Below are positions 5,043 through 30,968 of a stretch of 34,666 nt of DNA, one piece after another. The first letter of the stretch is position 1. Each line of letters opens with the position of its first letter. Source of the DNA: a virus; IMG/VR virus record IMGVR_UViG_3300025601_001430, positions 1 to 34,666 of that record; one strand, given 5' to 3'. A program made the position numbers and the translations under genes. The notes below the pieces were generated by a model that was given only the letters and a program-made list of their open reading frames with translations, ran no database searches and was not told where the DNA came from.

Positions 5043-6241
5043 TATACTAGATCCAGTTCAAACTCATATCGTTCTTCAGTCCACTTAGGTTCACGCCAAC
5101 ACCACTCAACATCGCTTTCTGCCCATTCGCAAAGTTGTCGGATGCCTTCGGCAATAACAACAGGCTCAAATCGAATGGAACTAAGTTCGTTATCTTCCTT
5201 GCATTTCTTCTTAATTTGATCATGCAACTTATTACCGTGATTATCTTTTGGTAACCAAGTTTTGATTGCTTGCTGAATCGAATAATCCATTTGCATAGGA
5301 TCAACTGTTGGATCTTGGGCTTTTAGGAATTCCATAAGTCCCCAACTGTTAGCAGTTTGGAACGTACTAGTTGGAAACATAACAGCATTTAATTCAATTG
5401 CACGAGTAGCAATATCAGGCCCATAATCTTTCCAATACTTAATTATGTTACCGATACCGGTCAGTACTTTGCTATTGATATTAATATCTTTGTCGCCTTT
5501 TTCCACTACAAGAATATCATTACGCATGAATACTTCATTCATATCCATGCAGAGTTGGTCTTCTGGATCGATATCAAACTCTGCGTCGATACTTGCTTCT
5601 CCTCGTTGAACACGAATGCGGAATTTGTCAAACTCTGAACACTGTAAACTATTAATGTTAATAGCCGCATATTGTTGGACATCCCAGTATTCGTTATTAC
5701 TTCTAATATAGTTGAGCGGAACTTCTTCAATACCAAGGAACATACAAGCTAGTATACGATGTTGTGCATCATTAACAAATATCCGTCCTTTTGAATCTTT
5801 GCGGCCAACACCTGGAAATACTAGTCCGGGTTCAAACTGGAACACAATGTCTACAAGAATGTGTTTTAAAAAGATATCACGTTGCTTCTCTGCGTTCTTG
5901 TAGAGAATTTTTGTGCTTGTCAGTCCGCCGAAATAATTAAGTGCTGGAGTATTGTGTTTTTTACTTGCCTCTCGTAAACTACCGAACTCAGGTAGATCTA
6001 TACCCTTTAAAGGATTGTTTACTCCTAGATTAACTAATACACGAAAGCATTCGATAAGCATATCTTCAAAACTAGGAGACTTGCCTAGTCTTCGTGTACT
6101 AACATAAACTGGAATGTTCTTTATGCGTTCTTCTTTTTCTTTAAAGGAAAGCGAATGCCAGGAAACTCTGTCTTTTTTTGGACCTAAAAGTTTAAACAAA
6201 TCTTTGCCAAAAAGATCTGTAACTTTTTTTGAATACGACAT
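5042..6241 (-). CDS. DGQHR/ParB-fold-like protein, DNA-modification associated
   Basis: The 399-aa protein contains GRIFVNDAQHRILACMFLGIEEVPLNYI (NDAQHR at residues 157-162), a variant of the D-G-Q-H-R motif of the ParB/DndB-like fold, followed by the expected helix and strand. DGQHR-domain proteins often sit beside DNA modification or restriction genes, and some regulate or use nucleotides; the reaction here is unknown. Residues 1-130 and the C-terminal half (ending EPKWTEERYEFELDLV) are unassigned. Translation is supported by a GAGGAT box before the ATG and a consensus promoter at 6272-6300. It is coupled to the HNH gene downstream. Confidence 0.6.
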   Translation of the reverse strand: MSYSKKVTDLFGKDLFKLLGPKKDRVSWHSLSFKEKEERIKNIPVYVSTRRLGKSPSFEDMLIECFRVLVNLGVNNPLKGIDLPEFGSLREASKKHNTPALNYFGGLTSTKILYKNAEKQRDIFLKHILVDIVFQFEPGLVFPGVGRKDSKGRIFVNDAQHRILACMFLGIEEVPLNYIRSNNEYWDVQQYAAININSLQCSEFDKFRIRVQRGEASIDAEFDIDPEDQLCMDMNEVFMRNDILVVEKGDKDININSKVLTGIGNIIKYWKDYGPDIATRAIELNAVMFPTSTFQTANSWGLMEFLKAQDPTVDPMQMDYSIQQAIKTWLPKDNHGNKLHDQIKKKCKEDNELSSIRFEPVVIAEGIRQLCEWAESDVEWCWREPKWTEERYEFELDLV

Positions 6242-14024: not shown

Positions 14025-14588
14025 TCTGTCTTTAATAATTTCTACAACTTTTTTATTCATTACTACTTCGTAATGATTTAATTCTAGTTCGATTAAATTC
14101 ATCTGATCTTCAAAATAACGTTGACTTTGAACAGTTACAACTCCGTCGTTTTCTGTATGGATCCAAGGTGAAGTTCCTTTAGTGGTTACAATCTGTGTCC
14201 ACGGATGTAATACAGATAAACCACTAGTGTTAATCATCGGTTTGCTGTGCGGACCTACATCTCTTATTAATCTGCTAAAAGGAAAAAAGTATTTGGCATA
14301 GTCAGCAACTGCAACACCGCCGTACGGAGTACTAATAGTAACTGCACCTAGAATATTTTTAGGAAGCCTATTTGCCAAGTGCAGTGAATATATTCCTCCT
14401 AGACTGTGTGCTATAAAGAAAATATTTTTTTGTTGTTTTAAAGTATGTGTGATTGTTTCTAAATTATGAGCAAAACCATCCTCGCTGCTGTATTTTATAT
14501 TAATTTCTTCTTCTGCATTAATATGCTCTCTAATATAATTAAAACTTTCAGGAGTAGCATTTGCTCCATGTATATAAACAATCTTCAT
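14010..14588 (-). CDS. Alpha/beta-hydrolase, lipase-like
   Basis: The 192-aa protein has YIHGANATPESF (oxyanion-hole His-Gly region near the N-terminus), the nucleophile elbow FIAHSLGGIYSLHLA (Ser in A-H-S-L-G-G), an acid candidate in HTENDGVVTVQSQ, and a terminal His in ELNHYEVV. This gives a full Ser-Asp-His triad arrangement close to small triacylglycerol-lipase/PGAP1-like esterases. No signal peptide is seen, so it should act in the cytoplasm on lipid or another ester. With the desaturase and AcpS it gives the phage three lipid-related functions. Confidence 0.75.
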   Translation of the reverse strand: MKIVYIHGANATPESFNYIREHINAEEEINIKYSSEDGFAHNLETITHTLKQQKNIFFIAHSLGGIYSLHLANRLPKNILGAVTISTPYGGVAVADYAKYFFPFSRLIRDVGPHSKPMINTSGLSVLHPWTQIVTTKGTSPWIHTENDGVVTVQSQRYFEDQMNLIELELNHYEVVMNKKVVEIIKDRLTLN

Positions 14589-14593
14589 CAGTA

Positions 14594-14845
14594 TTATACA
14601 GCCTCGCCGCTTGTATCCTCTTGATTTGTCATATATTTTTCCAACACATCTCGATACTGTTCTTCACTCAGTCCGTGCCAACCGATACAATTACCAGTGG
14701 GTGACCGGCCACATCCGCATGTGCCTTTTTTCATTTGTTCTACGCTTGGAGACATTTTATTCTTCTTTCCAAAAATTGCATCATAATTGTTAGCGAATTG
14801 TTCTTGGCTAACACTATACGGCCGTGGCCGAGACCCCTTACTCAT
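14594..14845 (-). CDS. CDGSH-like iron-sulfur protein
   Basis: The 83-aa protein contains CGCGRSPTGNCIGWHGLSEEQY, giving three Cys and one His in the order C-x-C-...-C-x-G-x-H, like CDGSH (mitoNEET-type) 2Fe-2S proteins. It has one residue fewer before the third Cys than the usual C-x-C-x2-S-x3-P-x-C-D-G-x-H, and Ile replaces Asp. CDGSH proteins transfer clusters or electrons. Its start overlaps the stop of the small basic gene (ATGA). Metal binding is inferred from the four candidate ligands. Confidence 0.6.
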   Translation of the reverse strand: MSKGSRPRPYSVSQEQFANNYDAIFGKKNKMSPSVEQMKKGTCGCGRSPTGNCIGWHGLSEEQYRDVLEKYMTNQEDTSGEAV

Positions 14846-14986: not shown

Positions 14987-15295
14987 TTATTTATTGATCC
15001 GCATGGCTACTGCGGCTACTATATCATCTTCATGCGATAAAGATAATGCATACTTATATTCTAACACATTGTTATTGTCAATTACAAGAGGAGCAGAATT
15101 AAATGAAAATTTTATTTGTATTTTAGAATAGTCAAACCCTTTGCCCTCTGCTTTGACTATGGCTTCCATACAAGCCCATGTCTTTGCAGCAGCAATTGCA
15201 GTATCTCCATCTACATTTAATTTTTCCATTAGACGATTTAAGGTTTTCATATTTTTAAACCTTGAAACTTTTGTTATATCAATGCCTATCATCAT
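14987..15295 (-). CDS. acpS: Holo-[acyl-carrier-protein] synthase-like 4'-phosphopantetheinyl transferase
   Basis: The 102-aa protein matches AcpS: GIDITKVSRF at the N-terminus (metal-binding Asp), WACMEAIVKAEGKGF (equivalent of W-x-x-K-E-A-x-x-K, with Glu kept and the first Lys replaced by Met), and ALSLSHEDDIVAAVAM. Family members move phosphopantetheine from CoA to a Ser of acyl carrier protein, using Mg2+. It is shorter than E. coli AcpS (126 aa), mainly between the motifs. It starts only 13 nt past an intrinsic terminator T-run that follows a structured RNA, and has no clear Shine-Dalgarno, suggesting control by attenuation. Confidence 0.82.
   Translation of the reverse strand: MMIGIDITKVSRFKNMKTLNRLMEKLNVDGDTAIAAAKTWACMEAIVKAEGKGFDYSKIQIKFSFNSAPLVIDNNNVLEYKYALSLSHEDDIVAAVAMRINK
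14988..14995 (-). promoter_or_regulatory. Late-type promoter box AATAAATA
   Basis: Minus strand AATAAATA overlapping the end of acpS. The T4 geometry puts +1 at about 14982, directly at the AGGAG of the 42-aa gene, giving a 12-nt leader. Confidence 0.45.
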
Positions 15296-15307
15296 TTACT
15301 TATTGAT

Positions 15308-15333
15308 AAAAAAAGCACCCGAAGGTGCTTTTT
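15308..15333 (-). terminator. Intrinsic terminator with UUCG tetraloop
   Basis: The minus-strand hairpin GCACC-TTCG-GGTGC (15328-15315) is followed by seven T residues. A-rich flanks make it usable in both directions. The GCACCT of its 5' arm can alternatively pair with AGGTGC at 15358-15353, so termination may be conditional. Confidence 0.9.
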
Positions 15334-15490
15334 GGTGGACCTGCCAGGCCCTGCACCTGAGTATTGAATCCGTTTCTAGTTGCTTTATACAACAATAACT
15401 TTTGACAGAAGAATAAGCGTATTTCTGCCTAATTACAAGGACTTTCACCCGATCTTCTTGCTATGCAAGAATAGTCTTATTCCTCTATAT
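15334..15490 (-). ncRNA. Structured RNA or regulatory leader upstream of acpS
   Basis: The gap between dCMP deaminase and acpS (minus strand) is dense in complementary segments. There is a 7-bp hairpin TTCTTGC-ATA-GCAAGAA. GGCAGAA pairs with TTCTGTC around a 12-nt loop, and that loop contains CTTATTC, complementary to GAATAAG at the 5' end, which would form a pseudoknot. A smaller GTTGT/GCAAC hairpin follows. The 3' part folds as TCAGG-TGCAGGG-CCTGG followed by CAGGTCC-ACCA, resembling the T-arm and acceptor end of a tRNA, and runs into the terminator. AGGTGC (15358-15353) competes with the terminator. No matching RNA family was recognised; it may be a riboswitch-like attenuator or a stable RNA. 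Confidence 0.55.
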
Positions 15491-15494
15491 TTAA

Positions 15495-15929
15495 TCAAAA
15501 AATTTGGTTAACGATAACACCAGAACGTTCTAGAAACTTAATACCGCTGTTATCTCTATATGCTGTTCTAAAATACACACGTTTGATGCCTGCTTGATAA
15601 ACTAATTTGGCACAATCTAAACAAGGAGCATGAGTAATAAAGATATCAGCACCTGCTCCGCTGTTATTTGATTTGGCTAATTTAGCGACTGCGTTCGATT
15701 CTGCATGCAATACTTCTGGCCTTGTCTTTAATACTTGACCACCATCTTCATGCTGCTCAATGACTTCCTCACAACCGTTATCCCATCCACTAGGCATGCC
15801 GTTGTAACCATAACTGATTACAGTATCATCTTTTACAATAACAGCACCGACTTGCAGACGTTTAGCATGACTTAGTTGCGAAAGTCTTTCGGCCCACGCC
15901 ATGTATAAATCAATAAACTTTTGTTTCAT
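15495..15929 (-). CDS. dCMP deaminase
   Basis: The 144-aa protein belongs to the cytidine/deoxycytidylate deaminase family. Zinc ligands are in HAESNAVAKLA (His, with catalytic Glu) and APCLDCAKLVYQAGIKRVYF (P-C-x-x-C). VGAVIVKDDTVISYGYNGMPSG is the typical substrate-binding start. It converts dCMP to dUMP, the substrate of ThyX encoded about 1 kb upstream, so both feed dTTP synthesis. Its ATG overlaps the PAAR gene stop (TAATG). Confidence 0.93.
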   Translation of the reverse strand: MKQKFIDLYMAWAERLSQLSHAKRLQVGAVIVKDDTVISYGYNGMPSGWDNGCEEVIEQHEDGGQVLKTRPEVLHAESNAVAKLAKSNNSGAGADIFITHAPCLDCAKLVYQAGIKRVYFRTAYRDNSGIKFLERSGVIVNQIF

Positions 15930-30940: not shown

Positions 30941-30968
30941 AAAAAGCATCCTTCGGGGTGCTTTTTTT
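30941..30968. terminator. Bidirectional intrinsic terminator with UUCG loop
   Basis: GCATCC-TTCG-GGGTGC (30946-30961) is flanked by A5 on the left and T7 on the right. It ends the plus-strand 30603 gene. It can also serve the desaturase gene, whose stop codon overlaps the T-run. Confidence 0.88.

Follow-up and report, generated by a model that had tools for sequence, protein, structure and literature searches.

The question raised by the locus described here is which RNA is encoded between a dCMP deaminase gene and a small gene for an ACPS-like protein in an uncultured phage. The analyzed DNA, herein referred to as the window, is a virus record of 34,666 bases. On its minus strand the dCMP deaminase gene (15495–15929; PF00383, E = 5.7e-21) is followed by a leader and then by the ACPS-like gene (14987–15295, 102 aa; PF01648, E = 8.6e-7, 29.4 bits with a cut-off of 25). 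The ACPS-like protein scored under every NCBIfam cut-off and had zero matches in INPHARED. The initial annotation described the leader as a structured intergenic RNA, and stable folding was borne out: the predicted fold of the leader RNA (15494–15308) beats those of 199 out of 200 shuffles (z = -3.0). The leader is a real structured RNA made of three parts, namely a 5' element herein referred to as E, the acceptor half of a tmRNA, and a terminator, and is most probably not an acpS riboswitch.

General searches gave little for this region. At gathering scores, no Rfam family was matched anywhere in the window, and at E ≤ 10 only weak matches were found near the leader, the best of them with E = 0.0027 and 25.5 bits (cut-off 114). 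ARAGORN found zero tRNA or tmRNA genes in the window. A BLASTN search of the leader against INPHARED phages matched the terminator alone among the best 20 of 86 records. The leader is identical in copies of the window from three other contigs, with the closest difference at 15558. The 3300007516 strain (L115) has more than 100 differences from the window below 14690 (14375–14690) beside an identical leader and ACPS-like gene, which suggests a recombination boundary.

The 3' part of the leader (15399–15333) is the acceptor (3') half of a permuted two-piece tmRNA. An nhmmer search with the leader against loci sharing the dCMP deaminase found this part in L072, L078, L060, L011, L042, L035, and L057. 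In Rfam, it corresponds to the permuted tmRNA family RF04321, matched with 98–123 bits in 5 of 6 loci searched, the exception being the contig-end fragment L011; among 80 related records, 9 likewise contain a match to this family over its cut-off. On the lone acceptor half of the window RF04321, a model of both halves, reached 12.6 bits, below the cut-off of 47. A profile of 43 acceptor halves built without the window copies identified 15399–15333 with E = 2e-14, the next match having E = 3.3. The T-arm and CCA end of a two-piece tmRNA are both present, confirming the earlier remark that the 3' end resembles a T-arm plus ACCA. A tmRNA match, which the initial annotation had named as evidence against its reading, was thus obtained for the 3' half. 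In GTDB genomes, the acceptor-half pattern was found at 3 loci, all of them chance matches by profile.

The acceptor half begins with the 3' strand of tmRNA helix 2, UUGUUGU (15389–15395), for which the expected partner in the coding half is ACAACA. For 63 of the 149 linked relatives listed, the coding half contains the exact partner of the helix-2 6-mer, compared with 13 when a random coding half is used, and the TGTTGT/ACAACA pair itself was found in 11. The T-arm, UCAGG-UGCAGGG-CCUGG (15344–15360), forms 5 of 5 pairs. The T-stem of the closest relatives is GCGGG/CCCGC, so that two pairs have changed on both sides and yet remain paired (four base changes). In total, the acceptor half has 9 changes from the closest relatives, with the acceptor strand CAGGUCC and ACCA (15333–15343) unchanged. 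Of the 170 distinct linked pairs listed for the relatives, 169 have GGGCCTG facing CAGGTCC. The G3-U70 pair is the identity rule for alanine; the alanine-identity U lies within CAGGUCC, and the 5' strand bearing G3 is absent in the window and present in the relatives (GGGCCTG).

The usual order in related phages is acceptor half, linker, and coding half. Pattern scans of IMG/VR gave at least 119 loci for the acceptor half and at least 120 for the coding half. Among the matches listed, 205 acceptor-half rows are followed by a coding half no more than 3 kb away (median gap 97) and 23 are not; 12 of these 23 have 150 or fewer bases of contig left, and the other 11 belong to the window or its copies. 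Copies with the orphan acceptor half are found in contigs 3300007516_001999, 3300025513_000955, and 3300005933_000337, which come from different IMG samples. The orphan state, with the terminator directly after ACCA, is limited to the window lineage among the matches listed. The pattern of an acceptor half plus a UUCG hairpin gave at least 119 loci, including the window lineage (L115), and in the 113 new loci of the UUCG-hairpin scan the acceptor profile matched L439, L481, and L482, each with a coding half just downstream. Coding-half rows lacking an acceptor-profile match were also checked: 14 of 15 have an acceptor half upstream by regular expression and the remaining one (L087) by reading, while eight coding-half rows outside this check lie at contig starts or score very low.

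The coding-half profile found nothing in the window, its best match (E = 0.6) being on the terminator. Contig 3300035698_006362 joins the right end of the window with 100% identity over 1,989 bases and adds 24.2 kb; no coding half with a tag reading frame was found in the resulting 58.9 kb (34.7 kb of the window and 24.2 kb of the adjoining contig). A scan for coding halves with the matching ACAACA gave 26 loci; at 22 of these an acceptor half lies upstream, and the other four resemble chance matches. A partner coding half is therefore assumed, since none was found in the window, the adjoining contig, or the ACAACA scan. Two GGRCCTG candidates in the window whose surroundings were read, at 5422 and 32453 (both minus), were rejected because they lie inside open reading frames.

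Directly after ACCA, the leader ends in a UUCG intrinsic terminator (15332–15308), 12 nt ahead of the ATG at 15295; a UUCG terminator had been proposed here. It is not listed by a generic terminator scan, probably because its stem extends into the U tract. A second, near-identical UUCG terminator is located at 30944–30968 (plus strand).

The reading that we favor, with a probability of roughly one half, is that the region encodes a late transcript consisting of a new 5'-terminal RNA and a separately encoded tmRNA acceptor half, which would be assembled in trans with a distant coding half. It is rather unlikely, by our estimate, that the acceptor half is a decaying remnant, in which deletion of the linker and coding half fused ACCA to a terminator formerly located after the coding half. 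This history agrees with the coding half not being found in 58.9 kb, with the 9 changes from the closest relatives, and with the nearly identical GCACC-UUCG-GGUGC terminator located 3' of the coding half in L072/L099 and L087. However, terminators of this type also occur elsewhere in the window (30944), the acceptor strand and ACCA are intact, and the T-stem changes have preserved pairing. As judged from sequence, these T-stem changes speak for use of the acceptor half, but they may predate its separation from the coding half.

The 5' part of the leader, element E (15494–15400), is a structured RNA with a four-helix junction and a pseudoknot. The structure drawn for it contains helices P1, P2, P3, and P4 and a pseudoknot joining the P4 loop to the 3' tail; P1, P2, and P3 were placed in the window by alignment to a covariance model, R1. 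P1 is formed by GGAAUAAG (15483–15476) and CUUAUUCU (15417–15410), with covariation at 7 of 9 pairs in other copies of E. P2 is the hairpin UUCUUGC-AUA-GCAAGAA (15455–15471), with covariation at 6 of 7 pairs. P3 is a T-loop-like hairpin, GGGUGAAAGUCC (15439–15450), in which pairing in the window is confined to a GG/CC core; GGUGARAGNCC is conserved in other copies. The pseudoknot, placed by its coordinates and covariation, connects GGCAGA (15429–15424) with UCUGUC (15409–15404). The initial annotation had predicted a pseudoknot, and it proved real: the helix is 99.5% paired in 32 other copies and shows two-sided changes at 5 of its 6 pairs.

Over the whole element, 93.8% of the pair cells in these 32 copies are paired, with two-sided changes in 24 of 30 pairs, so the covariation in homologues that the initial annotation had called for was observed for the 5' half. 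The alignment comprises 32 of 36 copies, omitting L132 and L237 (no P3) and the near-duplicates L366 and L369. Pairing in it is imperfect in places: two P1 pairs do not form in 11 and 9 of the 32 copies, respectively, nor does one P3 pair in 11. None of 500 shuffle controls reached any of the five covariation measures; a slide control is biased in favor of the structure, because the structure was drawn from the same copies. The E copy of L035, folded alone, is no better than its shuffles (z = 0.31).

At E < 1, the window was missed by a profile of E (E.hmm). The earliest sequence profile to reach the window copy was built without the window lineage and gave E = 7.4e-4 over the collected loci. 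Since later profile iterations included the window lineage and were hence circular, R1 was also built without it. This model matches the window at 15494–15400 with 46.7 bits (E = 4.8e-13), the next best match in the window having 16.6 bits. No R1 matches at E ≤ 1 were found in 100 pattern-picked control loci (856,708 bases), a few of which are phages carrying tmRNA. The L133 copy of E gave nothing up to E = 5 against all Rfam families, no family of Rfam 15 was matched by E in covariance-model comparisons, and the copies of L133 and L117 had no match in INPHARED. Listings and excerpts from the open-access PMC literature on phage structured RNAs showed no description of E. Identification of E as a glutamine riboswitch was rejected, Rfam support being absent. 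E is a well-supported structured RNA family without an Rfam entry, and it recurs in other phages. The earlier statement that the leader belongs to no known class stands for this 5' part but not for the 3' part, which is the tmRNA acceptor half.

In other phages, E is located ahead of other genes, further copies having come from a pattern scan. It lies immediately 5' of a tmRNA acceptor half also in L117, L125, L196, and L035. The genes located 3' of E vary and include small secreted proteins, a P-loop kinase, tmRNA, and mini-ORFs; the function of E is not tied to tmRNA, because E also precedes protein genes. Small secreted proteins rich in His and Gly form the family that most often follows E, found in 11 of 36 neighborhoods (L133, L176, L118, L149, L371, and others). 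We judge it unlikely that E acts in trans as a small RNA in its own right, the transcript shared with its neighbor being incidental. The varying downstream genes fit such a role, as does the copy number: of 47 related records, 11 have E, always once. Against it, the pseudoknot strand ends beside the tmRNA half or beside a Shine-Dalgarno sequence and start codon (within 45 nt after E in 15 of 36 copies), which is the layout of a cis-element.

A T4-late-type TATA box, TTAAATA (15494–15488), is found directly before E. The motif DTAAATA, picked after inspection of the E copies, occurs at -25 to +12 of the E start in 36 of 36 distinct copies (one being the window lineage), against 213 of 10800 random windows (2%), and in 31 of 36 copies it occurs at offsets -4 to 0. 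The consensus of the T4 late promoter is TATAAATA, whereas the boxes before E are TTAAATA, ATAAATA, or GTAAATA. In T4 late promoters, a TATA-type box lies about one helical turn before the start, and a -35 element is not required (PMC2988020, in excerpt). The box of E likewise lies about one helical turn ahead of the expected start, which in the window is predicted from sequence. If the box is used in the T4 late manner, transcription would begin at the first P1 pair.

The favored reading, a late transcript with assembly in trans, can be outlined as follows. A short late transcript would contain two joined RNAs closed by their own terminator. Transcription would start near 15483, just behind TTAAATA, so E would form the 5' end of the transcript. 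As a four-helix junction locked by a pseudoknot, E most likely protects or controls the RNA that follows it. In relatives, the RNA continues with a linker and the coding half, which would be processed apart; in the window, the terminator would set the 3' end just after ACCA, and therefore the acceptor half would need no cutting from a coding half. The earlier suggestion of a stable RNA processed before the terminator stands as an option. The acceptor half, trimmed to CCA, would pair with a coding half from elsewhere in the phage genome that carries GGGCCUG at its 5' end and ACAACA in helix 2. The assembled tmRNA would be charged with alanine via G3-U70 and serve trans-translation. We propose only tentatively a bolder view, in which E would represent a new class of regulatory RNA at the 5' terminus of T4-type late transcripts in many uncultured phages and, together with this, the tmRNA of this phage would be encoded by two unlinked genes, the acceptor half having its own promoter and terminator. 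The location of E where late phage transcripts should begin, before mRNAs and tmRNA, would provide a handle on late RNA control or protection in uncultured phages.

To our knowledge, no earlier sign of a tmRNA split between transcription units exists, and none was found in listings and excerpts from the open-access PMC literature on permuted, two-piece, split, and phage tmRNA. If true, the first such sign would be this acceptor half closed by a terminator of its own. Excerpts of PMC9004378 report 53 two-piece molecules among 133 unique phage tmRNA structures, 50 of these 53 being from marine or aquatic phages, and a two-piece tmRNA with a glutamine riboswitch in phage Melnitz. The window shares the helix-2 strand, T-arm, and CAGGUCC-ACCA with the permuted two-piece tmRNA (RF04321; Melnitz ssrA, same excerpts), but it has no coding half and its terminator comes directly after ACCA. 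The glutamine riboswitch (glnA RNA) is, like E, a structured RNA ahead of a phage two-piece tmRNA (PMC9004378, in excerpt), whereas E has another sequence, a four-helix fold, and a pseudoknot to the 3' tail.

Mycobacteriophage DS6A is reported to have a tmRNA that retains hardly anything beyond the tRNA-like domain, and strong inhibition of tmRNA is reported for a molecule of similar kind (PMC4131195, PMC11915505, both in excerpt). DS6A and the window have in common a phage tmRNA without a tag reading frame, and a lone acceptor half could similarly act as a decoy, binding SmpB or pairing with the host coding half and so disturbing trans-translation in the host. We regard this role as quite improbable: of the tRNA-like domain the window has just the 3' half, of the permuted type, and because of this the acceptor stem and D-arm contacts cannot form alone. 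Either way, an orphan acceptor half raises the question of why phages carry parts of tmRNA at all.

The initial annotation also proposed a mutually exclusive antiterminator, in which AGGTGC (15358–15353) pairs with GCACCT (15328–15323). In the tmRNA half, AGGTGC makes up the 5' strand and loop of the T-arm. When the upstream sequence is dinucleotide-shuffled, 1241 of 5000 shuffles (about one in four) contain 6 nt complementary to the terminator arm, and the forced antiterminator (-22.3 kcal/mol) is 5 kcal/mol weaker than the terminator fold (-27.4 kcal/mol). For the terminator tested in the window, no alternative pairing that would switch it was supported. A riboswitch for the ACPS-like gene, proposed earlier as sensing CoA or a lipid, is highly improbable in spite of the aptamer-like character of E (a conserved, covarying domain with a junction, T-loop, and pseudoknot) and the reported phage tmRNA behind a glutamine riboswitch (PMC9004378, in excerpt), because the switch helix is at chance level, 67 nt of tmRNA sequence separate E from the terminator that would serve as platform, the genes downstream of E are many and unrelated rather than of one class, and inspection by eye saw no Shine-Dalgarno sequence ahead of the ACPS-like ATG.

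Several further features were observed near E and tmRNA in related loci. Between E and the tmRNA acceptor half, L011 (4580–4726) and L057 (6223–6368) contain two very small reading frames of basic character, MAYRAKNGSIKAAVRRQLRKRK and a sister sequence. In L117 and L196, the gene products behind E and tmRNA resemble what we take to be the periplasmic phosphate-binding protein PstS. A hairpin in L072 (4550–4625, CTGTCAAG...CTTGACAG) contains the TTGACA of the sigma70-type promoter of the tmRNA and resembles a short E relative; a TTGACA-bearing hairpin of the same type is found upstream of the tmRNA in L228. Divergent E-like matches with 27–32 bits, outside the alignment, were found in L272 (5694–5601), L315 (629–532), L138 (7646–7726), and L157 (1884–1806).
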